A DNA stretch of 64,000 nt from Amycolatopsis pithecellobii (GTDB lineage: Bacteria; Actinomycetota; Actinomycetes; Mycobacteriales; Pseudonocardiaceae), in contig NZ_WMBA01000026.1 of NCBI RefSeq assembly GCF_009707865.1, positions 1 through 64,000 on the forward strand, in the 5' to 3' direction. Under the pieces are notes generated by a model, which was not told the origin of the DNA, searched no databases, and was given only the letters and a program-made list of their open reading frames with translations. Positions 8,892 through 46,569 of the stretch are shown piece after piece. The position numbers and the translations under genes are program-made. Numbering within the stretch: position 1 is the first letter of the stretch; every line of letters starts with the position of its first letter.

Positions 8892-8915
8892 TGCTGAGTC
8901 CGAATTCCCTCTCAC

Positions 8916-27668: not shown

Positions 27669-29132
27669 TTACGCGGCGGCGAACCGGAAATTGCGGAACA
27701 GCTCCGTTTCCGGTGCGCCCGCACCACGCATCCGCAAGGCGTAGCTGACCAGCGCATGATTGATCATGTAGAGCCGGGTGCCTTCTTCTTTCGCGCCCTC
27801 GGACATGTGGTCCACGACCCAGGCGAGCGCCGAACTGCCCCCGTATTGAGCGCGGGGTTCGAAGATCAGGTCGGCGGCATCGATCTCACCGAGCACGTTG
27901 AGGACATAGCTGACCGGGAAAGCACTGTTGGCATGGTCCGCTTCGGTCCGGTCGTAGCCGGGGAAGGCGTCGACCATGCGGGTCAGCGCTTCGTCAGGGA
28001 TCAAATGCATCCGGCCGGTGATCATGGCGACTTCGATGATGTAGGGATAGGCGATGCCGTTGGGGAAGAAATTGCCACCGGGGTCGACCAGATCCAGCAC
28101 GGCCGCCACCTGCGCAAGATAGCCGTCCAGGTCGGGCAATTCCTCTTGCAGCCGCCCGAGATTGTGCAGCGCGACGATGTAGTACTGGCTCATGTGGACC
28201 CGGTCGTCCCACGGCACCTGCTCCAGCAGCACCTTCGCCTCGGCCAGCCAGTCGATCGGATCGTTCAGGTACTCCGTCCTGCCGGACATGGCGATGGCGT
28301 TGAGCATCGTCAGCAGCGGATAGACCTTCGCCCAGGCGACGGGCAGTTCCTGCGGAAACGACGGGTAGATCTTCAACTCGTCGGCACGGGTCATGTAGTG
28401 CAGGACTTCCTTCATGTAGTCCCGCTCACCGTCGAAAATGTACTCGTCGAAACCGAGCAGCGTCACCACCGACAGGAACATCGCGCCGGCACGGCCGCGG
28501 AAGTACGGCGCGGGGATGTTCTCCAGCAGGTTCAAGCCTTCGATGACGTGGTTGCGGTCCGGGGTGACCAACCGGTCCTTCAACCCGAGCTGGCCGATGG
28601 CGAGGAAGACGGTCGACGACGCGGACAGCCGCTCGTAGTCACCGTGGCGCCCCTGGTTCTCGTCGGCGATCTGATCCGGCGCGATCTCGTCGAGCATGCC
28701 CAGCACCTCCGCCGGGAAATCTCGTTCGTCGTTGACCAGCAATGACACGTCGAGGCCGAGCTTGGCGAAGGAGTCCATCACCAGGCTGCCTGCCATCGCC
28801 CGGTAGTAAGGATTGCGCTCGGCACGGGCGGCTTGCAAGAGCGGCCCGACAGCCGGCGCGACGTCGTCCTGACGCGCCGGGTCCGCCACCGTGAGCACGA
28901 AATCCGTCAGATCCCGGCAGAACAGCGTGTACGCATTGGACGGTGACACCTTCGCCGCCAGCTGGTCGAATGTCCGGCGGATGTGCCCGGCGACCGCCGG
29001 GGCGAACTCGATCGGATACTGGCCGAGGCCGATACCCCGGATCATCCGGCTCCACGGCGCCGAGATCATCCGGGATTCGTTCGACAAGTCACTCAGTCCG
29101 GATACCGGAAGAGCGCGAGCGACACTGGTCAT
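27669..29132 (-). CDS. Helical protein of unknown function (third gene of the acyltransferase cassette)
   Basis: A 487-residue protein I do not recognise. It is acidic, rich in predicted helices and has repeated helix-pair segments (EGLNLLENIPAPYFRGRAGA, WAKVYPLLTMLNAIAMSG, YYIVALHNLGRLQEELPDLD, YPYIIEVAMITGRMHLIP), suggesting an alpha/alpha-toroid or similar barrel. No signal peptide, transmembrane helix or cofactor motif is visible. It begins 24 bases after the kinase-like gene, with AAGGG before the ATG, so it is in the same operon. Possible roles are a cyclase- or hydrolase-like tailoring step; this is inference from context only. Confidence 0.75.
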   Translation of the reverse strand: MTSVARALPVSGLSDLSNESRMISAPWSRMIRGIGLGQYPIEFAPAVAGHIRRTFDQLAAKVSPSNAYTLFCRDLTDFVLTVADPARQDDVAPAVGPLLQAARAERNPYYRAMAGSLVMDSFAKLGLDVSLLVNDERDFPAEVLGMLDEIAPDQIADENQGRHGDYERLSASSTVFLAIGQLGLKDRLVTPDRNHVIEGLNLLENIPAPYFRGRAGAMFLSVVTLLGFDEYIFDGERDYMKEVLHYMTRADELKIYPSFPQELPVAWAKVYPLLTMLNAIAMSGRTEYLNDPIDWLAEAKVLLEQVPWDDRVHMSQYYIVALHNLGRLQEELPDLDGYLAQVAAVLDLVDPGGNFFPNGIAYPYIIEVAMITGRMHLIPDEALTRMVDAFPGYDRTEADHANSAFPVSYVLNVLGEIDAADLIFEPRAQYGGSSALAWVVDHMSEGAKEEGTRLYMINHALVSYALRMRGAGAPETELFRNFRFAAA

Positions 29133-29156
29133 GGACTTGCCCTTTCTGTTTGTCGT

Positions 29157-30833
29157 TCACAGCGGCGGGACGGGCAACCCGAGGAATTCCGTGCGCCGCC
29201 CCTCCAGCATTTCCAGGGCCCAGTTGAGCCATTTGATGCCTTCGCAGTAGATGGCGACCGGGCGCCGCTGCGTCTGAAGGTCGTCGACGAACGTGCCGCC
29301 TGGTTCGGTGTGGAAATGGAACGGCGGCATGGCGGCGAAATGTGTCCCCATGATGAAGACGAAACGGGTCAGCCAGTGGGGATCGTCCCGGCGATAGGTG
29401 GAATCGGGGTCGTCGAGGCCGTACACCTCGGTCATCACGGGCGCGAAGTAGTCTTCCATGCCCTGCGGCACGGCGCGCTCGACGCGCCCGCCGTGCGCGG
29501 TGACATCCCGTACGCGATACGCGCGCTGGTAATTGTTCCCGTCGGCGAATCCGATGTGGACGGTGGGGATCCGCCCCTCCTCGCACTGGGCCTGCAAACT
29601 GAACTGCTCATGGTGAATTTCGTCGTAATGGCCGAGGGAATTGTGCCACGGTTTGTTGTCGTACATCGGATCGTCGCTGGTCTCGCGTCCGGTCCCGCGG
29701 AAACCGATGGCACGGGGATCGAGGAACCGGATGCCCACCGATTCCGCGGTGATACCGGCCAGTGCCGCGTCGATTTCGCCGCGCGGAGCGCCGGAGGAGA
29801 TCAGCCGTTGCGCCCGCACGAGCGGGTCGAGGTTCGCGATCTTGATGTTCTCGGTGTTGGTGTCCCCCATGACCAGCGAATGGAACCGCGGCTCCAGTGC
29901 GGTGAGAAAGCGCGGGTTTTCGCGGAACCGTGCGAGCAACGCCGGCGCGTTGAGATAGGACACGCCGTTGATCACGATCCGCTCGGTGTCGAGCAGATGC
30001 TGGTTGAAGGTGCGCGGCGCGGTGCGCCGGCACAGGGCCAGCCGGTCCTCGATCTTGCGGAAATAGGAGATGTCCAGCGTTGCGCCGGGTGCGGGGACGC
30101 GGTTGACCGTGTGCACGACCTCGTTCAGCACCGACAGGATCAGCGTGTACAAGCGGGCGATCACGGCCGGTGGCGGACAGTATTTCTCGACGAACTGGCT
30201 GACCTCCAGACCGGGCACGTAACTCATCTCGTAGATGAATTCCTTGTGCGTGGTCTTCGCGCCGGTCCTGTGGTGGTCGGGAATGAGGATTTCCCGTGCG
30301 ACGGTGTCGAAAACCTCCGGGAAGTAAGGACGCACCGAGCCGGGCAGGGCGGCGAGGTACTCGGCCTGGTTTTCCGCCTTGGCGAAAGGAGGCAGCATCA
30401 CGCCCTCGCCACGACGGTCCCATTCCGCCGTGGTCAAAGCCTCGCTGAGAATCTTGCGAACGATGATCCGGTCGTCGCCGTCCCGGGTGAGCAGGATCGT
30501 CATGGACTCGCTGCCGCCGGTGCCGAACCCGGCGACCGTCTCCCCCACGTTGACGTAGGCGTTGACCATGCTGGCGAGCAGGTTCCGGGCTCGCGCCTGA
30601 CGCAGCACTTCGGTGTTTTCGATGGTCGATGACAGCGCCGACCGGAATTCGAAGTCGTCGAGTTCGGGATTGGCGCGCCTGCGCCAGACATCCGCCGGCG
30701 ACGACACCGAGATGATCTGCGTGGCGAACGGCGCGTTGTCGAACTTCCCCGGATCGAGCGCCGAGCCGAATGCGATGATCTGGCAGTTTCCGTCGAGCCG
30801 GATCCGGCGCGAGCTCTTAGTGGAAGACGGCAC
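29157..30833 (-). CDS. Small-molecule kinase-like protein (aminoglycoside-phosphotransferase-like fold)
   Basis: A 558-residue protein. The first part is unassigned. A kinase N-lobe is suggested by IIVRKILSEA (Lys), the catalytic loop by LVMGDTNTENIKI near residue 320 (Met replaces the usual His, Asp and Asn kept), and the metal Asp by FLDPRA near 370. The following DDPMYDNKPWHNSLGHYDEI matches the block seen after DPRG in phosphotransferases linked to polysaccharide synthesis. A C-terminal domain of about 170 residues has no recognised family. The GTG at 30833 overlaps the acyltransferase stop by 17 bases with GGAGG upstream. Probable substrate: a small molecule made by this cassette. Confidence 0.7.
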   Translation of the reverse strand: MPSSTKSSRRIRLDGNCQIIAFGSALDPGKFDNAPFATQIISVSSPADVWRRRANPELDDFEFRSALSSTIENTEVLRQARARNLLASMVNAYVNVGETVAGFGTGGSESMTILLTRDGDDRIIVRKILSEALTTAEWDRRGEGVMLPPFAKAENQAEYLAALPGSVRPYFPEVFDTVAREILIPDHHRTGAKTTHKEFIYEMSYVPGLEVSQFVEKYCPPPAVIARLYTLILSVLNEVVHTVNRVPAPGATLDISYFRKIEDRLALCRRTAPRTFNQHLLDTERIVINGVSYLNAPALLARFRENPRFLTALEPRFHSLVMGDTNTENIKIANLDPLVRAQRLISSGAPRGEIDAALAGITAESVGIRFLDPRAIGFRGTGRETSDDPMYDNKPWHNSLGHYDEIHHEQFSLQAQCEEGRIPTVHIGFADGNNYQRAYRVRDVTAHGGRVERAVPQGMEDYFAPVMTEVYGLDDPDSTYRRDDPHWLTRFVFIMGTHFAAMPPFHFHTEPGGTFVDDLQTQRRPVAIYCEGIKWLNWALEMLEGRRTEFLGLPVPPL

Positions 30834-33702
30834 GGGTGGTGGCCTCCAAATCGATCCTTGCTCGCACGGGAATCCCGTCCGGCGAAATGATCGGCGCATC
30901 GGGCGTGGTCAGGGCGGCCGTCACCCGGTCAAGGGCGGCCTTCGCTTCCGCGGTGTCCACACCGGACCGCAGGGACGCGGAATAGAGCCGGAGCACGTCC
31001 GGCAGCGTCGCCGCACCGGAAACGGCCAGCGCGACCAGCCAGCCCATCGCGTCGCCGCCGGCGAGGTAGTAGCCGTGCAGGAACATGGCGGGCCGGTGTA
31101 CCCGCAGCAGCTGGAAAAGCACGTACTGGTAGACGAGCTGGCTCAGGGCGACCTGCTCACCGCTTGCCGCCGCGTCACCGGGCAGGAACTCGCCATCCTC
31201 GACGCCGACGAGCTCGGAAACCTGTTCGTAGATCCGGCGCGCCAGCGGTTGTGTGTCCAGCAGCAACCGCGTGTCGCGGACCAGATCGGCCTGATCGAGG
31301 CCGGTACGGCGATCGAAGTGGAACACGGTCGCTTCATGTTGTCCACTGTGGAGCGTGCTCCGATCGCTGACGGACCCGGCCGCGTCGAGCACCTTCAGCT
31401 CCGCGTACACCTGGCCGATCCGGTCCGGCTGCCCGGCAAGGCGTTTCTTCAACCTGGCCTGGAGTACCAGCTCGCCTGCGGGGACGTCGATGTGCTTGCG
31501 GTAGTTGGCGGTGTGCTGGTAGATCTCCAGTAACTGGTGGAACGCCGAGCAGGCGGTCCGGTCCCGGTGCAGGATCGCGTTGCGGATGGCGCGCCAGATG
31601 GTGTGCGCGAAATAGCGTTCGCAGAAGGGGATTGTCTCCGACAGCCGGACGATTTCCCGGGACGTCTGGTAGTGCCGGAAGACCAGCCGGCTGCCGGGCG
31701 CGTGCAGTTCCTCGAGCTCGCCGAACAGCGTGTCCACCAACCGCACGGCACGCAGGAAGCGACCACCCTCCCCCGCTGGGCCGGCGTACGAGGTGACCGG
31801 CACATCGATGTCGTTGTCGATGAGCAGCTGCACGGATTTGTTGCCCAGCCCCAGTTCCAGCGCCACGTCAGGACGAAGATCCGCCAATGTCTCCACCGTG
31901 TCCCGCGACGCCATGATCTCGTCGGTGATAGCCAGTACCCCCGCCCGCACCTCGGCGGCCGTGGTGAGCAGACCGGAATCGTTGTTCGAGATCACCGGCG
32001 TGTGCGGGGTGCGGAACACGATCTCGTTGTCCGTCATGAACTCCTCGAACGCCTGGCGGGCCTCGTTCATCCGCTCGGCGTGGGCGAGGAAGGTGGTCGC
32101 CTCCTTCAACTCCGTGACCTCGACGGCGGGGAATTTCGCGGCGAACAGGTCGAAGCCGGGTTTGACACCCGCCCTGACGTAAACATTGGTCTGCCGCCGC
32201 GAATAGAACTTGTGGATCTCGACGTCCGTCTTCGGGTAGGTTCTGGCGATTTCGGTCAGGATCTTCTCGAGCTGCGCGGGCTCACCGCGAAGCCCGAGCA
32301 CGTGATGGGGCTCGGGCACCAGCCTCTCCGCGACCGTCAGCATCAGCGGCGTGAACGCCTGGCCCAGCTTGACGCCGTCGGCGATGGAAAGGGCACCGCC
32401 GGCCACCGCCGCGGTGATGATGCCGAAGCTCTCGCCAGTGTAGGCGAGGAAGCGCACCGGCAGCCCGGTGTCCCGGGCCGTCGCCCTCAGGTGAGCCTCG
32501 ATGGCGAGGCTGTGCACCAAGAACGCCGCGCCGATGAAGCCCTGCGCGACCATTTTGCCGGTGGGGATGTTTTCCGGGATCAGCAGGAGCTTCTCCGGCC
32601 GGCCGGGGAAACCCAGCGCCCGCGCGCTTTCCTGATAAATGTCGGTGACTTCGGAAACACCCGAGTCGAGCAGACCCCGGCCCAGGTTCTGATAGAAGGC
32701 CCGGCTCCCGAGGCCGGGGAAGAAACCCACGATCGTGCGGCCCCGCTCGGCATTGGGCAGGTAGTCGTGGACGACCCGGTTCATCCGGCGCGACTGTTCC
32801 CGGGAAAACAGAAAGGAATTCGCCGCGGACAGGGAGTGTCCCAGTTTCGCGCAGTCCCGCGGGGTGCTCGGCACGACGACCGCGGCGGCCGGGCGGGCGA
32901 GCGGAACCCGGTCCAGCAGAAAGATCCGGAAAAACTCGCTTTCTCGCAGTTCCTCGGCCAGCGCGAGGACGTCGCTCACGGCCGTCTCCGCGACGAGTCC
33001 CAATCCGGCGTCGTCGCCGCCGGTTTCCCGGAGGATCACCCGGCGAGGCACCCGGCGAATGGCGAGGACGGGCCGGATCCCGCGCCTGAATCGGCCGGCG
33101 ACCTGAGCGGCACTGTCCAGTGCGTGCCGCAGGCCGGGGTCGAGGCCGTCGCGACGCAGTTCTCCCGACGCGAGCCGGACATTCCGCACGAATTCCGAGA
33201 TGTCCGCGCACTCGCCATGGTCCAGCGCCTGCACCGCGGCCCGGATCCGGGGATGAACCACCGCCACGTCAGCACGATTCAGGATTCCGGTGAGAAAGCC
33301 CCGTAGCCGCACCGAATCCGGGAAAACAAAATTCGCGCCGGCTTCCGTTGCCCCTTCGGTCAGCCAGTAGTGCGGCCGCAGGAAATCAAGCAGGCGCTGC
33401 CTTTCCGGCGTGCCTGTCTCCTCGTCGAGCAGGAAGACGACCTGCCCGCCGTGCTCGGCCATGAAGTCGAAAGACCCGCCGCGCGGCATGATCTCGTTGA
33501 CATCGAAGGGAATTTCCGAGACTGCGCGGCCGGACGCGTCACCCGGCCGCAGCCGGTCGGCATGTACCTCGATATCCGTGACCTTCGACAGTTCATTCGT
33601 GCCGAGCCCGCCGGTGATCGCTTGTTCCAGCGCCGGATATCCTCGCGGATAGGTACGCCGCAGTGAATAGGTAACGGAATCGCCGCATGTTTCGCCGGTC
33701 AT
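30817..33702 (-). CDS. Large acyltransferase with a malonyltransferase-like domain and a degenerate second AT-like region
   Basis: A 961-residue protein. Residues about 320-640 follow the ACP acyltransferase fold: FFPGLGS (FPGQGS position, near 326), nucleophile elbow TGESFG near 423 (Glu replaces the usual His), catalytic His in LAHAERM near 538, and LELGLGNKS near 614 in the VGPGKVL position. Residues 1-310 have no recognised family. Around 840-910, LSQLVYQYVLFQLLRVHRPA and GYYLAGGDAMGW resemble a second AT half in which GHSxG is lost. No acyl-carrier or ketosynthase domain is present. It would load an acyl group onto a carrier or small molecule, with the downstream kinase-like and helical proteins acting on the product. 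Confidence 0.72.
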   Translation of the reverse strand: MTGETCGDSVTYSLRRTYPRGYPALEQAITGGLGTNELSKVTDIEVHADRLRPGDASGRAVSEIPFDVNEIMPRGGSFDFMAEHGGQVVFLLDEETGTPERQRLLDFLRPHYWLTEGATEAGANFVFPDSVRLRGFLTGILNRADVAVVHPRIRAAVQALDHGECADISEFVRNVRLASGELRRDGLDPGLRHALDSAAQVAGRFRRGIRPVLAIRRVPRRVILRETGGDDAGLGLVAETAVSDVLALAEELRESEFFRIFLLDRVPLARPAAAVVVPSTPRDCAKLGHSLSAANSFLFSREQSRRMNRVVHDYLPNAERGRTIVGFFPGLGSRAFYQNLGRGLLDSGVSEVTDIYQESARALGFPGRPEKLLLIPENIPTGKMVAQGFIGAAFLVHSLAIEAHLRATARDTGLPVRFLAYTGESFGIITAAVAGGALSIADGVKLGQAFTPLMLTVAERLVPEPHHVLGLRGEPAQLEKILTEIARTYPKTDVEIHKFYSRRQTNVYVRAGVKPGFDLFAAKFPAVEVTELKEATTFLAHAERMNEARQAFEEFMTDNEIVFRTPHTPVISNNDSGLLTTAAEVRAGVLAITDEIMASRDTVETLADLRPDVALELGLGNKSVQLLIDNDIDVPVTSYAGPAGEGGRFLRAVRLVDTLFGELEELHAPGSRLVFRHYQTSREIVRLSETIPFCERYFAHTIWRAIRNAILHRDRTACSAFHQLLEIYQHTANYRKHIDVPAGELVLQARLKKRLAGQPDRIGQVYAELKVLDAAGSVSDRSTLHSGQHEATVFHFDRRTGLDQADLVRDTRLLLDTQPLARRIYEQVSELVGVEDGEFLPGDAAASGEQVALSQLVYQYVLFQLLRVHRPAMFLHGYYLAGGDAMGWLVALAVSGAATLPDVLRLYSASLRSGVDTAEAKAALDRVTAALTTPDAPIISPDGIPVRARIDLEATTRAVFH

Positions 33703-33904: not shown

Positions 33905-34513
33905 TCAGGAAGTCTTGGCGTCCTCCGCTTGGACCTGAGCCATGACATGCTCGAGCAGGCGCAGCAACGTCTGTTTCACCGGGCCACGCTCGCGCGCGTC
34001 ACAGGTGAGCACCGGCACGGACTCGTCGATCGACAGCGCCTTTCGCACGCTTTCCACGCGGTGGTGCAGGATACCGTCGAAAAGGTTGATCGCGACGACG
34101 TACGGAATTCCCCTGTTTTCGAAGAAGTCGATCGACGTGAAGGTGTCGGACAGCCTGCGGGTGTCGGCGAGTATGACGGCCCCGAGGGCACCGCGGACCA
34201 GGTTGTCCCACATGAACCAGAACCGCTCCTGCCCCGGGGTGCCGAACAGGTACAGCAACAGGTCGTCCTCGAGCTCGACCCGGCCGAAGTCCATGGCGAC
34301 CGTCGTCGTGCTCTTCAAGGGCACGCGATCCAGCGAATCGTAGCTGTTGCTTGCCGCCGTCATGATGGCTTCGGTGCGGACCGGGTGGATATCGGAAACC
34401 GCACCGACGAAGGTGGTCTTGCCGACCCCGAATGCGCCGGCAACCACTATCTTCACCGAGGTAACCGACTTACGCCTCGCCACGGTCGAGGGGCGAGCGG
34501 AATCTGTCGTCAT
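33905..34513 (-). CDS. cvnD: Conservon 2 small GTPase (CvnD-type)
   Basis: A 202-residue GTPase paralogous to that at 7515. P-loop GAFGVGKTT, then AMDFGRVELED and the switch block FGTPGQERFWFMWDNLVRGA. The base-specificity site reads INLFDGI. It is the last gene of the eight-gene minus-strand run, 54 bases after the roadblock gene, and is followed by a hairpin terminator. Within the proposed system it is the switch read out by unknown downstream partners. Confidence 0.93.
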   Translation of the reverse strand: MTTDSARPSTVARRKSVTSVKIVVAGAFGVGKTTFVGAVSDIHPVRTEAIMTAASNSYDSLDRVPLKSTTTVAMDFGRVELEDDLLLYLFGTPGQERFWFMWDNLVRGALGAVILADTRRLSDTFTSIDFFENRGIPYVVAINLFDGILHHRVESVRKALSIDESVPVLTCDARERGPVKQTLLRLLEHVMAQVQAEDAKTS

Positions 34514-34567
34514 GACAACTCATTTCCTGTGGAGATTGGTCGGTGTCTGTGCCCCCGCACGCCCGGC

Positions 34568-35023
34568 TCACGCACCGATGTCGGCAGCGGCGGCGATCCG
34601 CGCCCGCATGGCGTGGTCATCACGCGGCTGGAGGCTGAGCGTGCGCCCGACCCGGTCGACCAGCAGGGCCATCTCGTAAGCGATCTGCCCGATGTCATCC
34701 GAAGAATCGGCGAGCACGGCGAAACACGAGCCGTCGCTGATCGACATCAGCAACATCGTGCCCGCGTCCATTTCCACGATCGTCTCGTTGACATTGCCGG
34801 CGTCGAAGCATTGCGCGGCACCGTCGGTCAGGCTCACCAGACCGCAGGCCACGGCCGCGAGCTGATCCGCCCGATCCTCCGGCAGGCTGTCCGACGCCGC
34901 GATCAGCAGCCCGTCCGCGGAGACGACGACCCCGTGTGCGACTCCCGGCACCCGCTCGGCGAAATCGTTGATAAGCCAGCCGTAGTCTTCGGGGGACTCG
35001 GTAATCGCGTTCTTCTCGGTCAT
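34568..35023 (-). CDS. cvnB: Conservon 2 roadblock/LC7 protein (CvnB-type)
   Basis: A 151-residue roadblock protein. YGWLINDFAERVPGVAHGVV and VSADGLLIAASDSL are the family blocks; TMLLMSISDGSCFAVLAD completes the sheet. It presumably regulates the adjacent GTPase. It lies 31 bases downstream of the kinase-like gene and 54 upstream of the GTPase. Confidence 0.92.
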   Translation of the reverse strand: MTEKNAITESPEDYGWLINDFAERVPGVAHGVVVSADGLLIAASDSLPEDRADQLAAVACGLVSLTDGAAQCFDAGNVNETIVEMDAGTMLLMSISDGSCFAVLADSSDDIGQIAYEMALLVDRVGRTLSLQPRDDHAMRARIAAAADIGA

Positions 35024-35054
35024 ATTTCACCAATCCTCGTCACTGTGCCGTCCG

Positions 35055-37670
35055 TTACTGATCCGAATCACTTTTGCGCAGCTTTCCCCATCCGCCGGGC
35101 TTTCTGGGCCGCTTGCCGTCGTCGCCCCGTGCCTTCCGGATTCCCTGCTGGAAACTCGACAGCCGGCTGCGGGCACGCGCCGGGTCGCGCTCGGTGGACT
35201 GCACGGGCCTGCCCGCCGCGCTTCCCGGCAACAACTGGGCGCCACGCCGGCGGATCGGCAGGCCGTCATCGGTGTAGGTGTACTTGTCACTGCGTGCGAC
35301 GGTTTCCACGATGATCCATCCTTCGTCGGCTTGAGAAGGCCAGTTCTCCCGCGAACCGTCCGCCACGGTGGAACGCGAGACCGCCCGTGGCTGGGTGGCC
35401 GTGTTGCGTGCCTTGAACCATCCGGACGCCGCCCGCTGCTCGGCCGTCTTCGCCGTCACGGCACCGCTGCGGCCGATGACACGGTTGGGCGTCCGGACCG
35501 GAAGCTCTTCGGGCACGTCCGCATGCGACGATTCGACCAGCTGCTGCCGGGTCTGCTCGTCCAGTGGCGCGGGCGCCGCACGTTCGGCGGTTTTTTCCTG
35601 CCGGGCACCGACTTCGACCAGCCGCCGCACCGGCGCCAGCTGCCCGTTCGCCGCTCCACCGGTCGCGGCCGGCGGGTTTTGCCTTGCCCGGCGCGACGAA
35701 GCCGCCTGCATCGCGTGCCTGCGGTCCGCCCAGCCGGGACGCTCGGCTTCGAGCACCAGGTCCGCGGGGACCGACAGCACCGCGGTCACCCCGCTCGCCT
35801 GGTCCCCGCCGAGGAGTTCCACCCCGATCCCGTGGCGGCCGGCGAGCCTGCCGACGACGACCAGCCCGACCCGGCGCGAGTCGGCCAGATCCGCGGAACC
35901 CAGCCGGGTCAGCCGCTGGTTCGCGTGTTCGAGCTCCTCGTCCGACATGCCGATCCCGCTGTCCACGACGGCGATCGAAAGGCTGCCGTCACGCAGGATC
36001 TGGCCCTGCACGGTCACCGTCGTTTCCGGCGCGGAGAACGAGGTCGCGTTGTCGAGCAGCTCGGCGAGCATCCGGGTGAGATCCTGCGCCGCCGTGTCGA
36101 TGATCTTCGCTTTCGGCGCGTCGAGCGCCTCGACCCGTTGGTATTGCTCGATTTCCGAAGTGGCCGCGTGGAACACGGTTTCCACCGTCGCCGGTTTGCC
36201 CGGCTTGCGCACGGGCTCGTTTCCCGACAGCACCAGGATGTTCTCGTTGTTGCGCCGCATCCGGGTGACCAGGTGGTCGAGCCGGTAGAGCAACTCGAGC
36301 CGGTCGGGGGCCGGTTCGTCCTTCTCCAGGTTCTCGATCAACCGCAGCTGCCGCAGCATCAGCGACTGGCTGCGCATGAAGACGTTCTCGAACACCTCCG
36401 AATAGCCGGCCCGCATCTTCGCGTGCTCGGCCGCGGCCGAAATCGCTTCGGCACACACGGAATCGAACGCCTTCGCGAGCGCGCCGAATTCCCCGTCGTG
36501 CGAGGGGGGCAGCGAAGGCGCGGTCTCCGGGTGGCCTTCCCTTGCCCTGCGCAGTTTCGCGGGCAGGCCCGTCTCGGCGATTTCGACGGCGCTGCGGCGC
36601 AACGAGGAGACCGTCCGATGGAGATAGCCGCCGATGACCAGGACGAGCATCGCGGCGACCACCCCGGCGGCGGCCAGCGCGATCACCAACGTCCGGTTGC
36701 GTGCCGCCGCGTCGTCCGCTTTCCGGCTCGCCAGTCCGATATCCGCCGCGCTGAACTGGCCGGTCAGCACGTCCAGCCGGTCCACAACTCGCCCGGCGTC
36801 ACGCCACTGTGCGGCGGGGACGGCGGGGACGAACGCCGCGCCAGGATTCAGGACACGGGCCGCGAGCGCGTCGCGGGCGGCCTTGTCGTCGGCGGGCACG
36901 GTCTCCCGGTAAGCCCGCAGCGCGGAGTCGGGGGCGATGGCGGTGAACTGATCGAGCCAGCTTGCGCCCAGCGTCGTGGCTTCCCGCGCCGCGGCCAGGT
37001 CCGGCCCGGCCACCGGCGCGCCACCGAGGCCCAATTCCACAAAGGACTGTTGACGGGCGAGATACTCGTGTGCCCTGGCGAGATCGAGTGTGCCGAGCAA
37101 ATCCGCGGACAGTTCCCTGTCATCGGCGCGGCGCACGAGCGTGCTGGAAACATCGAGCAGCGCGCCGGTGAGATCCGAATACGCGGTCACCAGCTGGACC
37201 GGGCCCGGCACCGCACGGACATCGTTGATCCGGGCCAGTTGCGCTTCGGCCGCCCGGCGTGGCTCGCCGGACTCGCCCACCGCGGCCATCGCGGCACTGA
37301 ACTGCGCGGCGGCAGTGTCCACTTCGCTCCGCGCGTCGGCGAGCTGCCCCTGATCGGCAGGCGTGTTCGCCGTTCCGGAACCGAGCTCCCGCTCTGCCTG
37401 CACCGACCCGAGCAGCTTCAGCACGCTGTTCTCGGCCTGGACGATCCGCTCATCGGCGTAGGCGCCCCGCACGGTGCTCATGGTGGTCGCCACCAGCACG
37501 CCGCCGGTCGCACCCGCGATGAGGACGGGCAGCGCGACCAGCGCGACGATCTTCACGGACGTGGGCCAGCGCCGCCAGGCGGCCAGCGTGCGGACCGGTC
37601 CGGGCACCGTGCTCGCCGCGCCGCCACGCTCCGGCGCGGGCTGTCCTCCTGTGTTCCGCATTTTCCTCAT
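35055..37670 (-). CDS. cvnA: Conservon 2 membrane sensor with NIT and histidine-kinase-like ATPase domains (CvnA-type)
   Basis: An 871-residue membrane protein. Helix 1 spans about 38-60, a helical outside sensor region about 65-320 resembles the nitrate/nitrite-sensing domain, helix 2 about 325-348, then a linker with HHATPase N-box (LTRMLAELLDNATSFSAPET near 500), VVDSGIGMSDEEL and GLVVVGRLAGRHG. A basic Pro/Arg-rich tail of about 230 residues follows, longer than in conservon 1. The ATG at 37670 is used; one three codons in (37661) has a better ribosome site. It follows the DUF742 gene by 33 bases, an unusual order. Confidence 0.92.
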   Translation of the reverse strand: MRKMRNTGGQPAPERGGAASTVPGPVRTLAAWRRWPTSVKIVALVALPVLIAGATGGVLVATTMSTVRGAYADERIVQAENSVLKLLGSVQAERELGSGTANTPADQGQLADARSEVDTAAAQFSAAMAAVGESGEPRRAAEAQLARINDVRAVPGPVQLVTAYSDLTGALLDVSSTLVRRADDRELSADLLGTLDLARAHEYLARQQSFVELGLGGAPVAGPDLAAAREATTLGASWLDQFTAIAPDSALRAYRETVPADDKAARDALAARVLNPGAAFVPAVPAAQWRDAGRVVDRLDVLTGQFSAADIGLASRKADDAAARNRTLVIALAAAGVVAAMLVLVIGGYLHRTVSSLRRSAVEIAETGLPAKLRRAREGHPETAPSLPPSHDGEFGALAKAFDSVCAEAISAAAEHAKMRAGYSEVFENVFMRSQSLMLRQLRLIENLEKDEPAPDRLELLYRLDHLVTRMRRNNENILVLSGNEPVRKPGKPATVETVFHAATSEIEQYQRVEALDAPKAKIIDTAAQDLTRMLAELLDNATSFSAPETTVTVQGQILRDGSLSIAVVDSGIGMSDEELEHANQRLTRLGSADLADSRRVGLVVVGRLAGRHGIGVELLGGDQASGVTAVLSVPADLVLEAERPGWADRRHAMQAASSRRARQNPPAATGGAANGQLAPVRRLVEVGARQEKTAERAAPAPLDEQTRQQLVESSHADVPEELPVRTPNRVIGRSGAVTAKTAEQRAASGWFKARNTATQPRAVSRSTVADGSRENWPSQADEGWIIVETVARSDKYTYTDDGLPIRRRGAQLLPGSAAGRPVQSTERDPARARSRLSSFQQGIRKARGDDGKRPRKPGGWGKLRKSDSDQ

Positions 37671-37703
37671 CCACTCGGTATTCGTGCCGGCTCGGTTGTG
37701 CTG

Positions 37704-38372
37704 CTAGGCGAGCTTCGCGATGCCCGCATGGACCCGCTTGAGCAGTTCCATCGGTGGCCGCCCGCTGATCATCGGCGTCATCTCCTGCAGCTCAAGAAGT
37801 CCCTGGTCGATCACGTCGCTGATGAGAACCTTGGCCACCCCGATCGCGACATCGAGTTCCACGGCGATCTCGGCTACCGACCGCGGCGCGTCACACAGGC
37901 GGCACAGCGTCAACTGGTCGGCGGACAGCTCCCGCTCGCCGGACCAGGACAGGTGTTTTCCGGTGGTGGTCAGTAAAGTCTCGAACTCGAGTTCGTACCG
38001 GGCCGCCGCGCGGCCACGGGCTCGAACGTAGGGCCGGACATGGAGAGTGCCCTCGTCATCCGGTTCGGCACCCGGATCAACACCGTCCCACGGCACGGCC
38101 GTCGTCTGCGACGGCAACGGGGAAACCGGGCGCGGATCCGCGGCGTCTTCCTCCATCCAGAGCAGGGTCATCGGGGACATCTCGATCACCACGTCAGTCG
38201 TCCTCACCGGACTCCCACTCTCGTCCGCTGCCGTCCGCGGGCGGAAATCGTGTGCGGCCCATTCCTGGTACCCGGACCAGCCGCCGAATCGGACACCGGC
38301 CCGGGAAGGCTCGTCGTCAGCCGGAGATTGCTTCGATGAACTCACGCGGGCTCCCAAGCTCGGCGGGGCCAT
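37704..38372 (-). CDS. cvnC: Conservon 2 DUF742 protein with long N-terminal extension (CvnC-type)
   Basis: A 222-residue protein. The DUF742 part occupies about residues 105-222 (LHVRPYVRARGRAAARYELE, then the helical CRLCDAPRSVAEIAVELDVA block). About 100 extra residues of low-complexity, acidic and Pro-rich sequence precede it; conservon 1 has none. The ATG at 38372 lies seven bases after the upstream stop with GGTGAG ahead; an ATG at 38396 is an alternative. Unlike canonical conservons it precedes the kinase gene. Confidence 0.87.
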   Translation of the reverse strand: MAPPSLGARVSSSKQSPADDEPSRAGVRFGGWSGYQEWAAHDFRPRTAADESGSPVRTTDVVIEMSPMTLLWMEEDAADPRPVSPLPSQTTAVPWDGVDPGAEPDDEGTLHVRPYVRARGRAAARYELEFETLLTTTGKHLSWSGERELSADQLTLCRLCDAPRSVAEIAVELDVAIGVAKVLISDVIDQGLLELQEMTPMISGRPPMELLKRVHAGIAKLA

Positions 38373-38379
38373 GTCACGC

Positions 38380-38868
38380 TCACCCGCCCGCGGCATTCGT
38401 CAGTGCACAGGCCAGCTTCTTTTCCGGCGCGACGCCGTCCGCGGAAATCACCGGCAGCGCGGCACTTCCCTTCGAGGTGTCCAGCGCGACGCCGACGAAT
38501 GGGGCAGCGGCGACCCGGTCGGCGGTGGTGCTCTCGCACCGGAACGCCGGCTGCTCACCCGAACTGACCATTGTGGACACTTGCATGGCTGCCGGGCCGT
38601 CCTTTGCCGCGACCAGATAGACTTTCTTGTTCACCATGGTGAAACCGACGTAACCGGGGCCACCGGTCGCCTGGGACTTGACGCTCGCGTCCCCCGCCTC
38701 CGGCGGGCCGGGAGTCAGCATCGGTGCCAGGGGCGACCCCGTCGCCGGTGCCCGGACGATGGAGGGAGCCGCGCTGCTCATATCGCCATCCGAGCCGGAT
38801 TCCGTGATCAGCACCACGGCCAGGCCCGCACCGGCCAGTACGCACACCGCCAGTGTTTTTCTGTTCAC
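38380..38868 (-). CDS. Small membrane-anchored or exported protein of unknown function
   Basis: A 162-residue protein starting at GTG with GGAGG five bases ahead. A hydrophobic segment (TLAVCVLAGAGLAVVLITE) near the N-terminus acts as signal anchor; no lipobox Cys at the right position is seen. The remaining 140 residues include a repeated small-residue region and paired Cys (FRCEST and KLACALT) that could form a disulfide outside. It sits between the ferredoxin reductase and DUF742 genes (gaps of 31 and 7 bases) and is therefore a candidate extracytoplasmic component of the conservon 2 system. Confidence 0.78.
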   Translation of the reverse strand: MNRKTLAVCVLAGAGLAVVLITESGSDGDMSSAAPSIVRAPATGSPLAPMLTPGPPEAGDASVKSQATGGPGYVGFTMVNKKVYLVAAKDGPAAMQVSTMVSSGEQPAFRCESTTADRVAAAPFVGVALDTSKGSAALPVISADGVAPEKKLACALTNAAGG

Positions 38869-38899
38869 TTTTCCTCCCTTCCCTCTCGTTTCGAACACC

Positions 38900-40153
38900 T
38901 CACGCGCTACGGACGGCCTCCAGGAAGGAAACTCGCCGCGCCGGGGCCGGTTTTCTGCTCCACGCTCCCGGGTCCGGCAACCCGCGCCGCTCCAGCAGTT
39001 CCTCCGTATACGTGAGCACCGCGGGGGAGGAATTGAGGCCGACGATCCCGACCGGCCGATGATCACGCAGATACGCGGTCACCGAACGGGCTCCGGTCGG
39101 ATCCTGCTCCAGCACGACCCGTTCCGTACCGAGCGGAGGAATGCCCGCCGCCTGGATGCGGACCCCGTGCTGTTCGGACCAAAATCGCGGCAGCGGCTCG
39201 AACGGCCGCGCCGAAGCCCGGCCCGCCAGCAGGTTTTCCGCCGCCGCACGGCCCATCTCGATCGCGTTCGTCCAGTGCTCGACACGCCGGGGCCGCTCGG
39301 CGAACCGGCGGTTCGTCCACTGTGCCACGTCGCCGGCGGCGACGACGTCGTCGAGCCCGATGACATGGCAGGTCGGCTCGCACAGCAGCCCGTCGTCCAC
39401 CTGGACCCCGGCGTCGCGCAGCCATCCCACCACCGGCACCGAACCGACGGCCACGATGACACACCCGGCCTCGAGGATCTTGCCGGTCGACAGCCGGATC
39501 CCGACAGTGTCGGGATCGTGCAGATCCCAGTCCTCGATCTGCACGCCGAGTTCAAGGTGAACATCGTTGCGCCAGTGCAGATCGGCCATCTGCTGCCCGA
39601 GTTCGGGGCCCAGCACATTACCCATCAAACCCTGGGAGCGGCCCACGATCGTCACGTCACGATCCATCGCCTTGAGCGTGGAGGCGACTTCCCCGCCGAT
39701 GAACCCGCTGCCGATGACGACCACCGGTTTGTGGCTACCGGCGATCCTCCGTTGCACCCGCTGGGCATCGGTGATCGTGCGGATGACGACGACCCGGGGA
39801 TGGCCGTGCGGCCCACCCGGGAGCCTTCGGGCTTCGACACCGGTCGCGATGATCAGACCGTCGTAAGCCAGTTCTTCCCCACCGGGCAAGGAAACCACGC
39901 GGCGCTTCGGGTCCAGTTTGGACGCTGTGGTGCCGTTGCGCCACACCGCATCCAGTTCCAGCAGCGGTTCGATCGTGAGATCGGCGGCATTCATGTGCCC
40001 GTCGAGGAACCCTTTCGTCAACGCCGGCCGGTGATACGGCAGCTGGTTCTCGTCACCGACGATGACTATTTCCCCGGAAAACGCGATTTCCCGGAGGCGT
40101 TCCGCGGCGCGCATCCCGGCCAGTCCCCCGCCGACGATGACAATCCGGTTCAT
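38900..40153 (-). CDS. FAD-dependent ferredoxin/rubredoxin-type reductase
   Basis: A 417-residue flavoprotein. Two dinucleotide-binding motifs are clear: FAD site VGGGLAGMRAAE at the N-terminus and NAD(P) site VIGSGFIGGEVAST near residue 150. GLIIATGVEARRLPG and AAGDVAQW are typical of ferredoxin reductases of P450 and dioxygenase systems. It would pass electrons from NAD(P)H to the ferredoxin encoded immediately upstream; the ATG overlaps that gene's stop (ATGA). This is direct evidence of a physical and regulatory link. Confidence 0.92.
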   Translation of the reverse strand: MNRIVIVGGGLAGMRAAERLREIAFSGEIVIVGDENQLPYHRPALTKGFLDGHMNAADLTIEPLLELDAVWRNGTTASKLDPKRRVVSLPGGEELAYDGLIIATGVEARRLPGGPHGHPRVVVIRTITDAQRVQRRIAGSHKPVVVIGSGFIGGEVASTLKAMDRDVTIVGRSQGLMGNVLGPELGQQMADLHWRNDVHLELGVQIEDWDLHDPDTVGIRLSTGKILEAGCVIVAVGSVPVVGWLRDAGVQVDDGLLCEPTCHVIGLDDVVAAGDVAQWTNRRFAERPRRVEHWTNAIEMGRAAAENLLAGRASARPFEPLPRFWSEQHGVRIQAAGIPPLGTERVVLEQDPTGARSVTAYLRDHRPVGIVGLNSSPAVLTYTEELLERRGLPDPGAWSRKPAPARRVSFLEAVRSA

Positions 40154-40998
40154 CGCTGGGCTCCCTGCAGTTGAATGGCCCGCATCGGGCAAGCACGGGC
40201 GGCCGATCGGACATCGGAGTTCTGCGATACGTCAGGCATCGCGCGGTACTGTAGCCGCCCGTCTTCCAGCAGCTGGAAGATATCCGGCGCCTCGGACTGG
40301 CAGAACCCGTAGCGGTGGCAACGCTGGTTGTCCACACTGACCCGCATCGGCGCGGTCTTGTCCAACGGCTTCACCGCGGCCATCTCGGCGCCGACAAGTC
40401 CGGCCCGGACAAGGAGTTTCGGCGGCAGCACCCGCAGCGCCACCAGCGCCAGCGCCGGCATCGCCACGGTGATCCCGGCGAGCCACATGACGTCGACATC
40501 GGTGTTGGCCCACGCGCCGAGCCAGGAATGCACGAAGGCCAGCGCGATCGCGAGATAGGCAAGCTGGTGGAAACGCAACCAGTTGCGGTAACGGAAAAGC
40601 CGGTGCAACCCGGCGGTCGCGGTGATGGCCACCATCAGATCGAAGGCGATGATGCCGAGCGCGTGCCGGAATTCGCCACCGAGAAAAGGAACGAAGATCT
40701 GGATTCCGGAAAGGACGCGCTCGTCGAGGAACAGGAACGACATCGCATGCACCAGGCCGGCGATGACCGTGAACGCGGCGAGCATCATGTGCCCGCCCCG
40801 CAGCGCCTGATGTCCGGTGACGCGGCGAACCCAGCCCGTGGCGGTCAGCACGCCCCAGCACAGGGTCAGACACATCGCCAGGTAGGTGAACCTGGCCGAC
40901 AGCGCCGCCATCTGCCGGATACCGACGTCATGAGCGTCGATCGCCGCGGCCAGTACAAAATCGTTGGTGTGCAACAACAGTTGCATGTGGACGGTCAT
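40150..40998 (-). CDS. Ferric-reductase-like transmembrane domain fused to a ferredoxin
   Basis: A 282-residue fusion. Residues about 30-200 contain about five to six membrane helices with two bis-His heme patterns: H-x13-H (GHMML ... VHAM) and H-x12-H (FHQLA ... FVHSW), as in ferric reductase/NOX proteins. Residues about 215-282 form a ferredoxin (CHRYGFC, C-x5-C, then CPMRAI) of the 3Fe-4S type used by P450 systems. So the protein can move electrons from a cytoplasmic iron-sulfur cluster through two hemes to the outer face. It overlaps both neighbours by four bases. Confidence 0.87.
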   Translation of the reverse strand: MTVHMQLLLHTNDFVLAAAIDAHDVGIRQMAALSARFTYLAMCLTLCWGVLTATGWVRRVTGHQALRGGHMMLAAFTVIAGLVHAMSFLFLDERVLSGIQIFVPFLGGEFRHALGIIAFDLMVAITATAGLHRLFRYRNWLRFHQLAYLAIALAFVHSWLGAWANTDVDVMWLAGITVAMPALALVALRVLPPKLLVRAGLVGAEMAAVKPLDKTAPMRVSVDNQRCHRYGFCQSEAPDIFQLLEDGRLQYRAMPDVSQNSDVRSAARACPMRAIQLQGAQR

Positions 40999-41822
40999 TC
41001 CGCCACCCGGGGCCGGGGGTTGTACCGCGCAGCGATCCGGACGACAGCGAACGTGCCGAGCAACACCAGCACGGCCAGGCCGATACCGACGAACAACTTG
41101 TTTTTACTCGGCATCACCTGGTACGGCGCGCTGGCCATCGAGCCGACGTACAACGACGTCGAGCGGACCAGGCCGGTGCTTTCCAGCAGGGTCATGTGCC
41201 GCATCACGATATCCACCCCCTGCTGCGCGAAATCGCGGACCATATCGTTTTTGGTCTGTGCGCGGACGGTCGCGAGCAACATGAAAATGGTGCCGTGTGC
41301 CTCGCGGGTAAGGTTCGCCCAGGCGTCATCGGCGTCACGCCCCGTTTTCTCATGGATCTCCTGCTGCCATGACTGCTGCAATGGCGTCGGCGTTGTCGGC
41401 ATGGCGACATTCAGTTTCGCTGCCACGCCGAGTACAGCCTCGTCGAGGATGTGGTGGTCGGTCATCATTTGCTCCGCCGCGGTGCGGACTTTCGAGTTCG
41501 TGGTCCGCTGCGCGGTTTCGTCACTGGACGGCGCTTCCCACAGGTTCGCCCAGCGCACGTTGATCAGCAGGTTCCGATCGTATTGCGACAACGGTCCCCA
41601 TGGGGTGTCCCAAATGGACGTGTCCTGGTCCCCGGTGGTTCCCGGGTCCATGGCCGGGGCGTCACCGGGAGACCCATGCCCGTGGGGTGACGGCGGAGTC
41701 TGCGCGGCTGCCGCGGGTGCGGTGACGGCGAACAGCACGAACGCCAGCGTGAGCACCGCGGACAACCGGGTGACCAGGCCGGACGGCCGTGCCCCCACCG
41801 AATGCACAAAAGAAACAGCCAC
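40995..41822 (-). CDS. Exported DUF4142 (ferritin-like helical) protein with C-terminal membrane anchor
   Basis: A 275-residue protein. A signal peptide (about residues 5-40, ending AAAAQT) is followed by a His/Pro-rich linker and a DUF4142 four-helix region (about 75-230; MMTDHHILDEAVLGVAAKLN and MRHMTLLEST), then a transmembrane helix (LFVGIGLAVLVLLGTFAVV). DUF4142 is related to ferritin-like folds; the His pairs could bind metal, which is inference. The start is GTG 41822 with AAGGAG seven bases upstream. It leads the eight-gene run and overlaps the ferredoxin-fusion gene by four bases. Confidence 0.85.
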   Translation of the reverse strand: MAVSFVHSVGARPSGLVTRLSAVLTLAFVLFAVTAPAAAAQTPPSPHGHGSPGDAPAMDPGTTGDQDTSIWDTPWGPLSQYDRNLLINVRWANLWEAPSSDETAQRTTNSKVRTAAEQMMTDHHILDEAVLGVAAKLNVAMPTTPTPLQQSWQQEIHEKTGRDADDAWANLTREAHGTIFMLLATVRAQTKNDMVRDFAQQGVDIVMRHMTLLESTGLVRSTSLYVGSMASAPYQVMPSKNKLFVGIGLAVLVLLGTFAVVRIAARYNPRPRVAE

Positions 41823-45351: not shown

Positions 45352-46569
45352 TCACACGGCGACGGTGAGCGACTTCAAACCGCGGAAACCCGCATAGGAG
45401 TGCCATACCGGCTCCGGATCGGCGCACACTTCCAGCTCCGGAAACCGGTCCAGCAACGAGCGCAGCGCGATACCGGTCTGGACCCGGACCAGTCCGGCGC
45501 CGAGGCACCGGTGCAATCCCTCGCCCATGGCGAGATGCTTGGGGCGCCGCCGTACATCGAGGACATCCGGTTCCGGGAACTGCCCGGGATCCCGGTTGGC
45601 CGAACCGACGAACGGCAGCACCGGCTGTCCTTTTTCGATCCGGTGCCCGTGGTAGGTGAAGGACTCGGCGGCGAGCCTGCCGATGTACTGCACCGGCGGG
45701 TCGAACCGCAGGAATTCCTCCACCGCCGCCGGCCACAGCCGCGGGTTCTCCCGCAGCAGCTCGCGTTGGTCAGGAAACTGTTGCAGGGCAAGGATTGCGG
45801 AGCCGATCAGGTGCCGGGAAGGTTCCAGCCCGGCGAACATCATGAGCACACACTGCGCACACGCATCCGCCACGGTGAAGGAAAAACCGGGTTCCTGCCG
45901 TGCGAGCATCGTACCGAGCAGTGAACGTTCGGGAAATTTCACCATTTCGGCGGCCAGGGTTTCCAAATAGGACATCAGCGCCTGCGCACTGGCCCAGCCA
46001 CGGCGGACGTCCTCGACGGTGATGTCGCTGGCGGCGAACAGGTAGGCGATGTCGTCGGCCCAATGATCCAGTTGCGCGTAGTCCGACTCCGGTGCGCCCA
46101 GCAGGCGGGTGAACACCATGGCGGGCAACGGCCGCGCGAAATCGGCGACCAGATCCATTTTCGCCCGGCCGTCCCAACGGGACAGCAGGGTGTCAACGGA
46201 ATCCTGGACGACCTCGGTGATCAGTGACCGGGTGAGTATACGGAAAACCCCGTCCATCGCCGCGCGCCGCAGCACATAGGAATCACCTTCGTGGAACGCG
46301 AACCAGGTCCGCAGAAACGCGACGAAATCAGTGAACTCGGCGCGCTGTTCCGGCCGGAGTGCCAGCACCGGCAGGTTCGCGCGGTTGTTCGTCAGCCGCG
46401 AATCGCGCAGCAGGGTCGCGGCATGCTCGTACGAGAACAGGATCCAGGAGCCGCCATACATCGTCGAACGGTGCACCGGCTCACGTTCGCGAAGTTCGTG
46501 GTAAATCGGGTAAGGATCGGTGAACAACTGGGAATTGCTGAAACTGAACGAGCTGAAATCGAAAGTCAA
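45352..46569 (-). CDS. Cytochrome P450 with I-helix lacking the conserved Thr
   Basis: A 405-residue P450. Heme loop LAMGEGLHRCLG near residue 355 (Met in place of Phe), ExxR in EEFLRFDPPVQ. The I-helix reads MFAGLEPSRHL: AGxE is kept but Thr is replaced by Pro-Ser. Such a change is seen in P450s acting on carrier-bound or unusual substrates, and it can block ordinary oxygen activation. Start is TTG 46569, supported by GGAG seven bases upstream. It lies between an exported lipoprotein gene and mycosin; no reductase is adjacent. Confidence 0.9.
   Translation of the reverse strand: MTFDFSSFSFSNSQLFTDPYPIYHELREREPVHRSTMYGGSWILFSYEHAATLLRDSRLTNNRANLPVLALRPEQRAEFTDFVAFLRTWFAFHEGDSYVLRRAAMDGVFRILTRSLITEVVQDSVDTLLSRWDGRAKMDLVADFARPLPAMVFTRLLGAPESDYAQLDHWADDIAYLFAASDITVEDVRRGWASAQALMSYLETLAAEMVKFPERSLLGTMLARQEPGFSFTVADACAQCVLMMFAGLEPSRHLIGSAILALQQFPDQRELLRENPRLWPAAVEEFLRFDPPVQYIGRLAAESFTYHGHRIEKGQPVLPFVGSANRDPGQFPEPDVLDVRRRPKHLAMGEGLHRCLGAGLVRVQTGIALRSLLDRFPELEVCADPEPVWHSYAGFRGLKSLTVAV

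Follow-up and report, generated by a model that had tools for sequence, protein, structure and literature searches.

A rearranged conservon co-inherited with a predicted transmembrane electron-transfer module in Amycolatopsis pithecellobii

The window analysed here is a stretch of 64,000 nucleotides from the genome of Amycolatopsis pithecellobii. Eight genes lie on its minus strand between positions 33905 and 41822 (Table 1), where they had first been noted. They encode a DUF4142 protein, a diheme protein with a fused ferredoxin, a ferredoxin reductase and a small exported protein, followed by the proteins of a conservon. The distances between successive genes are −4, −4, 31, −17, 33, 31 and 54 bases. 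The dense packing described in an earlier note on this DNA is thus confirmed, with gaps of up to 54 bases and three overlaps, of 4, 4 and 17 bases. The gene identities given there are supported by Pfam for seven of the eight proteins, the small exported protein having no Pfam match. About 200 bases flank the block on either side, with a DUF2071 gene ending at 42021 and the next gene starting at 33702; the gene directly after cvnD is acyltransferase-like. The eight genes are probably transcribed together. No promoter-like sites were found in 33.7–42.1 kb with a sigma-70-type scan, a weak test in an actinomycete, and the number of terminator-like sites across the block (7, compared to 4.8 in shuffled sequences) is uninformative.

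Table 1. Genes of the redox module and the conservon in the window, listed from the first gene to the last.
Product	Position	Strand	Family match or motif
DUF4142 ectodomain protein	40995..41822	-	PF13628, E 1.5e-15
Ferric-reductase-like diheme protein with C-terminal [3Fe-4S]-type ferredoxin	40150..40998	-	Fer4_15/Fer4_13
FAD-dependent ferredoxin reductase, BphA4/putidaredoxin-reductase type	38900..40153	-	Pyr_redox_2 and Reductase_C
Small exported/anchored protein, no family	38380..38868	-	no Pfam match
CvnC (DUF742) with extra N-terminal region	37704..38396	-	PF05331
CvnA, histidine-kinase-like	35055..37670	-	NIT and HATPase_c
CvnB, roadblock/LC7 protein	34568..35023	-	PF03259 (Robl_LC7), E 2.3e-19
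CvnD, small Ras-like GTPase	33905..34513	-	ATP_bind_1/GTP_EFTU; G1, G3 and G4 motifs

The DUF4142 protein has an N-terminal signal-like segment, an ectodomain and a C-terminal hydrophobic segment (judged by eye). Residues E96, H123, H176, H209 and E214 are invariant among 16 aligned sequences. The diheme protein has the two intact bis-His patterns, on putative membrane helices, and the fused ferredoxin that had been claimed for it. The two His pairs for heme, H70/H84 and H144/H157, do not vary across an alignment of 15 sequences and are found by pattern in all 13 loci where the module is linked to a conservon (see below). Cys residues 227, 233 and 270 of the ferredoxin domain (CxxYxxC...CP) are invariant in the same alignment. 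As there are three of them, a [3Fe-4S] cluster is more likely than a [4Fe-4S] cluster. With the Pfam family Ferric_reduct (PF01794), the window protein gives no match at E ≤ 1, but 12 of the 15 sequences in the alignment do (best E value 8.9e-10). The ferredoxin reductase has relatives of solved structure (3lxd, 1d7y and 1q1r). A small open reading frame with a hydrophobic N-terminus, of one of two sequence types, occupies the position of the small exported gene in 12 of the 13 linked loci (not in L048).

A detailed comparison can be made with two groups of membrane redox proteins, in each case limited to the part of the published account that was available. Like the bacterial NADPH oxidase SpNOX (PMC5676040), the window protein has a diheme ferric-reductase domain, in which the His residues form two pairs of the His-X12/14-His type, and it is probably also fed by NAD(P)H. 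It lacks the fused FNR-type FAD/NADPH domain of the NOX family; it has instead a fused three-Cys ferredoxin at its C-terminus, and the BphA4-type reductase is separate. The MsrPQ system and the extracytosolic redox systems of MsrQ-like type in Actinobacteria (PMC8238504) share the arrangement of a diheme membrane protein that passes electrons to an exported partner, as predicted for the window. In comparison, the exported partner here is the DUF4142 protein, and neither an MsrP-type molybdopterin methionine sulfoxide reductase nor an FMN-binding partner was found by Pfam among the eight proteins.

The conservon core consists of clustered genes for a histidine-kinase-like protein, a roadblock protein, a DUF742 protein and a small GTPase on one strand, the same four proteins (CvnA–D) as in the conservons, or actinobacterial G protein systems (AGPS), of Streptomyces coelicolor. 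The H-, N- and G-boxes of CvnA and the G1, G3 and G4 motifs of CvnD are all present in the window. Each motif is positive in 12 or 13 of the 13 linked loci, the misses being the N-box pattern in L015 and the G1 pattern in L049. The CvnA of the window has two transmembrane segments with a loop of 268 residues between them, the NIT ectodomain.

There are three differences, however, from the S. coelicolor conservon. First, the four redox and exported genes stand at the head of the operon. Second, the gene order is C-A-B-D and not A-B-C-D, and we therefore term the window's conservon a rearranged variant. This order, with the DUF742 gene before the kinase gene, is found in 13 of 13 linked loci and in none of 41 other conservons, which were chosen by eye for spread. 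In these, the DUF742 gene lies between the roadblock and GTPase genes in 37 cases and is undetected in four (L118, L125, L128 and L143). It was located with DUF742 stretches from the unlinked conservons themselves, 32 being placed by the script and five (L137, L139, L140, L141 and L151) by hand, as the script had taken the gene of a neighboring conservon. A published survey, in the part available, scores cvnB, cvnC and cvnD at one, two and three genes from cvnA (PMC13343842), and scoring by such fixed distances would not register the present one as complete. Third, CvnC has an extra N-terminal region. Its motif GGWxxYxEWAxxDFR is present in all 13 linked loci and absent from the 41 other conservon stretches, searched over their whole length in six frames. 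A CxxC pair in CvnC was also considered as a redox relay. It is present in 10 of 13 linked sequences and in 3 of 12 aligned unlinked ones (by eye), and is not diagnostic.

The distribution of this arrangement was examined at 90 loci encoding the diheme protein, mostly the best among the matches listed and not a random sample. A conservon lies directly downstream of the redox module, on the same strand, in 13 of them, including the window, and in none of the other 77; the stretch read for L070 ends about 4 kb past the diheme gene, at the contig end. Saccharothrix (S. coeruleofusca among them), Amycolatopsis (including A. oliviviridis), Crossiella and Kribbella are among the hosts of linked loci. 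Strand and order, redox genes and then conservon, are kept down to about 60% diheme identity and across two taxonomic orders, with reading frames that overlap or are closely spaced. The linked loci share a common descent, forming a single clade in the trees of the diheme protein (100/100), the GTPase (100/99) and the roadblock protein (100/98). Moreover, pairwise distances of three module proteins and three conservon proteins are correlated (r 0.84–0.91), with 0 of 2000 permutations reaching each value. The redox module and the conservon are a co-inherited unit and no local accident, and the conserved order in relatives for which the earlier note had asked is borne out.

Nearness alone does occur, since of the 77 unlinked loci two (L059 and L065) show a conservon on the opposite strand at a distance of about 5 kb. 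Beyond these two, nothing speaks for a chance neighborhood without functional meaning, which is extremely improbable given the order, strand and spacing kept in the 13 loci, and chance clustering is refuted by their conservation as a single clade.

The linked unit is rare and patchy, being present in at least 11 of 390 sampled genomes of the family, and this observation sits poorly with an input role for the module. In a wider search of the class at E ≤ 1e-40, 2 of 296 sampled genomes match, the window's own being one of them. The fusion of diheme protein and ferredoxin is therefore largely restricted to the family, with Kribbella (L010) as an outlier. Homologues were called by tblastn thresholds, and both genome sets are samples.

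The neighborhood of the module differs between the two kinds of loci. A divergent ECF sigma factor gene lies upstream in 66 of the 77 unlinked loci and in none of the 13 linked loci. In those 66 loci, one and the same module is thus connected to a different kind of signalling device. Matches to an anti-sigma factor (38/77) and to Lipoprotein_15 (41/77) are also found in the unlinked loci. The ECF-sigma-linked module of Pseudonocardiaceae has the same three redox genes (DUF4142, diheme and ferredoxin reductase); its signalling partner is the sigma factor and that of the window is the conservon. The literature search found no published report of this module in titles or the openings of abstracts, and none of a conservon joined to such an electron-transfer chain, in agreement with the novelty claimed earlier. 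An observation against an input role is that 11 of the 77 unlinked loci are without the sigma factor.

Genes for thioredoxin (10/13), peroxiredoxin (8/13) and a sulfur transporter (2/13) accompany the linked loci, and none was found in the 77 unlinked loci. The thioredoxin and peroxiredoxin genes are located downstream of the unit in most linked relatives, which suggests what the stimulus may be. Neither is found nearby in the window, which again runs against an input role. A search for a thioredoxin gene moved to another part of the window's genome gave a single match (29% identity, E 3e-9), and this idea was dropped.

A P450 gene lies upstream in the window (45352–46569) and in L009. As the ferredoxin reductase and the ferredoxin have P450- and dioxygenase-partner proteins among their relatives, the module could supply a P450 such as this one with its class I redox partners, and the locus would be a version of the known conservon–P450 linkage. 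This is very unlikely, as the ferredoxin forms one polypeptide with a diheme membrane protein and 11 of 13 linked loci have no P450 match in the stretch searched (about 2.5 kb upstream only for L048–L052). Electron supply to a P450 was dropped for the latter reason.

In 9 of the 13 linked loci, the loop between the transmembrane segments of CvnA has only 3–12 residues, leaving no ectodomain. In comparison, a short loop is found in 2 of 41 unlinked conservons, both with a P450 match nearby, and one of the 41 has no transmembrane segment. The segments are from a hydropathy script, with the loop in L140 (155) split by a third segment. The nine sensor-less proteins fall in one clade, and the counts may overstate what is perhaps a single loss. 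On the other hand, the CvnA ectodomain is complete (247–268 residues) in the window, L009 and L015 and shorter, at 132 residues, in L048, which tells against the module as an input.

In the available part of the literature, accessory genes accompany CvnA proteins that lack sensory domains, and CvnF8, the only accessory protein there with a demonstrated action on a CvnA, stimulates CvnA8 (PMC13343842). Nine of the 13 linked loci resemble the CvnE (P450) and CvnF (GAF) systems, as described in the parts available (PMC13343842, PMC8510531), in having extra genes beside a sensor-less CvnA. The linked loci differ in that the accessory genes are a membrane electron-transfer set 5′ of the core and neither P450 nor GAF genes, and the window also in that no P450 or GAF gene directly follows cvnD and that its CvnA keeps its sensor. 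The 5′ position, unlike that of cvnE and cvnF (3′ of cvnD), is a further observation against an input role. The accessory rule is not strict here, as L150, an unlinked conservon with a full ectodomain, has a P450 match nearby.

We consider it about an even proposition that the eight genes are one inherited unit in which the redox module feeds a G-protein switch as its input. Electrons would pass from NAD(P)H through the FAD reductase and the [3Fe-4S] ferredoxin to two b-type hemes and on to the outer face, the probable site of the DUF4142 protein. The membrane part of CvnA would read the redox load carried by the hemes or by the DUF4142 ectodomain and, acting through CvnB and CvnC, would set the GTP state of CvnD. 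A redox input is favored because CvnA is sensor-less in 9 of the 13 linked loci and because the conservon replaces the sigma factor of other loci. To this extent the redox sensor for the GTPase proposed in the earlier note gains support; the full NIT ectodomain in the window's own CvnA does not fit it.

The relationship could also be reversed. Rac acts directly on NOX2, and ECF sigma/anti-sigma pairs normally regulate neighboring genes. With the conservon as the switch and the electron exporter as its effector, CvnD-GTP would switch the diheme chain directly or via its expression, for electron export or for making or removing oxidants on demand. This is the chief alternative, possible but less probable. 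The sigma and anti-sigma genes beside the unlinked modules would make the module the regulated part, the window, L009 and L015 still have the full CvnA ectodomain, in agreement with such an arrangement, and the downstream thioredoxin and peroxiredoxin look effector-like. Moreover, MfpA of M. smegmatis, encoded by the gene after a conservon, binds the GTP form of the conservon GTPase as an effector (cited in PMC4316618, in the part available). However, a CvnA without an ectodomain, as in the nine loci, needs another input, and in the window the redox genes begin the operon and the GTPase gene ends it. A related idea, less likely than not, is that the NOX-like diheme channel and the Ras-like GTPase cassette form one membrane machine, an independently arisen prokaryotic counterpart of Rac–NOX, in which electron flow toward the outer face and the GTP state of CvnD would be coupled in one or both directions.

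Both cassettes might simply be co-transcribed for the same oxidative stress, with no direct signalling link. Operon packing would suffice for their co-inheritance, and the thioredoxin and peroxiredoxin genes suggest a stress regulon. We find this distinctly unlikely, since the absence of a CvnA sensor from a large part of the linked clade, the CvnC extension confined to the linked loci and the pattern of conservon or sigma factor together indicate that the conservon has adapted to its partner.

With the redox module as input, these loci of a small number of soil actinobacteria suggest a bacterial G-protein switch linked to redox, which is now open to test. For the question of what conservons sense, the unit offers a third class of accessory with readable chemistry, and a clade in which the sensor of CvnA itself is gone. 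The same redox module beside an ECF sigma factor, found even in the window's own genome (L198), serves as a natural control. Two further diheme loci of that genome, L198 itself and L199, lie outside the 90 loci, and both stand without a conservon.

The eight minus-strand genes that the earlier note had placed at 33905-41822 were all confirmed at these positions. Adjacent genes overlap or are separated by 54 bases or less, while on both sides of the block roughly 200 bases lead to the nearest gene. The three genes directly downstream of the block gave no match in the other linked loci (L009-L015, L048-L052), those where the diheme protein gene and a conservon stand together.

Features of the window and of related loci, with coordinates where available.
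Feature	Coordinates	Strand	Content
Gene 1		minus	DUF4142 protein; signal-like N-terminus, hydrophobic segment at C-terminus
Gene 2		minus	diheme ferric-reductase-like protein with fused ferredoxin
Gene 3		minus	FAD ferredoxin reductase
Gene 4		minus	small exported protein
Gene 5		minus	CvnC, DUF742
Gene 6		minus	CvnA, NIT-domain kinase
Gene 7		minus	CvnB, roadblock protein
Gene 8		minus	CvnD, small GTPase
Genes downstream of block	window 27669-33702	minus	three genes; one with weak acyltransferase (fabD/mdcH-like) similarity, two without Pfam match
Second conservon	window 7515-11273	minus	ordinary order kinase-roadblock-DUF742-GTPase; full-size CvnA ectodomain (281-residue loop); P450 match nearby on other strand
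Sigma-type locus L198	G000:C133:150700-162000		anti-sigma, ECF sigma, Lipoprotein_15, DUF4142, diheme protein, ferredoxin, reductase
Gene in linked locus L051	L051:8862-10361		GAF-SpoIIE phosphatase-like; shortly 3' of cvnD, where most others have thioredoxin and peroxiredoxin
Genes in linked locus L011	L011:17383-20814		two LuxR-type (GerE) regulators and an AAA_16 ATPase-like gene; 3' of peroxiredoxin

The cofactor residues of the redox proteins are well conserved. The four heme-ligand His and three ferredoxin Cys residues of the diheme protein are invariant in an alignment of 15 sequences. The three Cys residues lie in a CxxYxxC...CP pattern, which suggests a putative [3Fe-4S] cluster, presumably as in the P450-type ferredoxins. 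The solved structures related to this part comprise small ferredoxins and the tail of a P450 51 chain (551 residues); the reductase has BphA4 and putidaredoxin reductase among its solved relatives. In the DUF4142 protein, E96, H123, H176, H209 and E214 are invariant (16/16 aligned sequences), side chains that could together bind a metal or a heme.

Relatives of the diheme protein were found at nine loci when named genomes were scanned. In seven of them (Saccharothrix obliqua, Kribbella antibiotica, Amycolatopsis oliviviridis, Amycolatopsis sp. A133, Saccharothrix carnea, Crossiella sp. S99.2 and Saccharothrix coeruleofusca) DUF742, kinase, roadblock and GTPase genes come after the redox genes. 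Five further linked loci (L048-L052) came from 390 genomes of the family of the window and the 80 neighborhoods examined. An order of redox genes followed by conservon genes, for which the earlier note had proposed to search relatives, is kept in 13 of the 90 diheme-protein loci read, including the window. The redox triad (DUF4142 protein, diheme protein and reductase) is itself common: of the 77 unlinked loci, 70 have all three genes. Two unlinked loci (L059 and L065) have a conservon about 5 kb away on the opposite strand. Among the 390 family genomes, the 11 best GTPase matches coincide with the 11 linked loci found there, and the unit is therefore rare and patchy in distribution. The next GTPase match (genome G274) has a similar score, yet the diheme match of that genome is weak (1.1e-5).

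The literature searched on conservons and actinobacterial G protein systems, mostly outside subscription papers, gave no report of this unit among the matches listed, in agreement with the claim that a conservon joined to an electron path had not been described. No match was found for DUF4142 with ferric reductase, or for roadblock and DUF742 with ferredoxin reductase, and the words 'ferric' and 'ferredoxin' are absent from PMC13343842 and PMC8510531. Conservons are known; by this literature, their joining to this predicted electron-transfer accessory set appears to be new.

The linked units share one origin, as judged from protein trees. The 13 linked diheme proteins form a single clade (support 100/100, tree of 50 diheme proteins), as do, in trees with other conservons, the linked GTPases (100/99, 40 rows) and roadblock proteins (100/98, 38 rows). 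The diheme and GTPase trees agree on the groups inside the linked clade (L014 and L052; L010, L013 and L051; L011, L012, L049 and L050). Moreover, module and conservon protein distances are correlated in nine comparisons (r 0.84-0.91), a level reached by 0 of 2000 permutations in each case. Kribbella belongs to another order, Propionibacteriales rather than Pseudonocardiales, and its unit adjoins a Saccharothrix sequence in the trees, which suggests horizontal transfer.

Most of the 77 unlinked loci, which include L053, L067 and L079, have a different partner. A divergent ECF sigma factor is located upstream of the diheme gene in 66 of 77, and one on the same strand in two more. A zf-HC2-type anti-sigma match is present in 38/77, and a Lipoprotein_15 match before or after the triad in 41/77; HTH_67 matches occur in 44/77. 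ECF sigma, anti-sigma and Lipoprotein_15 were found in none of the 13 linked loci within the stretches examined. One electron-transfer module, as predicted from its genes, is thus found with either of two signaling devices. In the 50-protein diheme tree, sigma factor versus conservon requires one change when ten loci are left out (those with neither partner, or with the sigma factor in another orientation), and five when these ten are a third state. Both kinds of module occur in the genome of the window, the sigma-linked kind at L198, and a further locus there (L199) has the diheme protein and reductase only. Papers found on DUF4142, or on ECF sigma with ferric reductase, gave no description of the sigma-linked triad in their titles or the opening of their abstracts.

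The linked conservons were compared with 41 others, 40 from other loci and the second conservon of the window. Gene order is C-A-B-D in 13/13, and DUF742 precedes the kinase in 0/41; in the others it lies between roadblock and GTPase (37/41) or was not detected (4/41). These four (L118, L125, L128 and L143) have kinase, roadblock and GTPase alone, with roadblock and GTPase matches about 70-110 bases apart. Linked CvnC proteins carry an extra N-terminal region with GGWxxYxEWAxxDFR (13/13), a motif found in 0/41 other conservon stretches by six-frame search.

There are also differences in CvnA, for which transmembrane segments and loops were predicted with a hydropathy script. The two segments are separated by 3-12 residues in 9 of 13 linked proteins and by 132 in L048; the window (an exception to the sensor-less pattern of its clade), L009 and L015 have loops of 247-268 residues. 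A large ectodomain is present in 38/41 other conservons (224-291 residues, except for L140, with a 155-residue loop and the ectodomain split by a third predicted segment). L151 has no segment, and only L155 and L156 have short loops, each with a P450 match nearby; L150 retains a full ectodomain despite such a match. As all nine short-loop linked cases are in one clade, the loss may be a single event. According to PMC13343842, the accessory proteins CvnE and CvnF go with CvnA proteins without sensory domains, and CvnF8 binds and stimulates CvnA8. A sensor-less CvnA is likewise seen in much of the linked clade, but with a new type of accessory set.

From the protein families, electrons would pass from NAD(P)H through the reductase, the fused ferredoxin and the two hemes to the outer face, where the DUF4142 protein could be acceptor or carrier. 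CvnA in the membrane would read the redox state of this assembly, a step supported by the loss of its ectodomain in much of the linked clade, and would act through CvnB and CvnC on CvnD, as in the known conservon frame. We give about even chances to the redox module being the input to the GTPase switch. The main alternative reverses these last two steps, so that the GTPase would control an electron exporter; NOX2 in phagocytes, controlled by Rac, offers an analogy, and we consider this possible but rather doubtful. That module and conservon are merely co-regulated seems improbable.

With the redox module as input, gene content in the relatives indicates that the response would include thiol and peroxide handling. 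Ten of the 13 linked loci, all except the window, L048 and L051, have a thioredoxin gene after the GTPase (WCxPC in 10/10). A peroxiredoxin gene is next in eight, with two Cys five residues apart, a spacing we take to be that of the PrxQ subfamily. In L009 and L015, thioredoxin and a YeeE/YedE-type sulfur transporter (PF04143) replace the thioredoxin-peroxiredoxin pair. The 77 unlinked loci gave no match to any of the three, and the stretches around the 41 other conservons none to thioredoxin or peroxiredoxin. The theme of the unit is likely thiol or peroxide stress, and the window looks like a reduced member of the group because these genes are missing there. Homologues of the L011 regulators are present in L012, L049 and L050.
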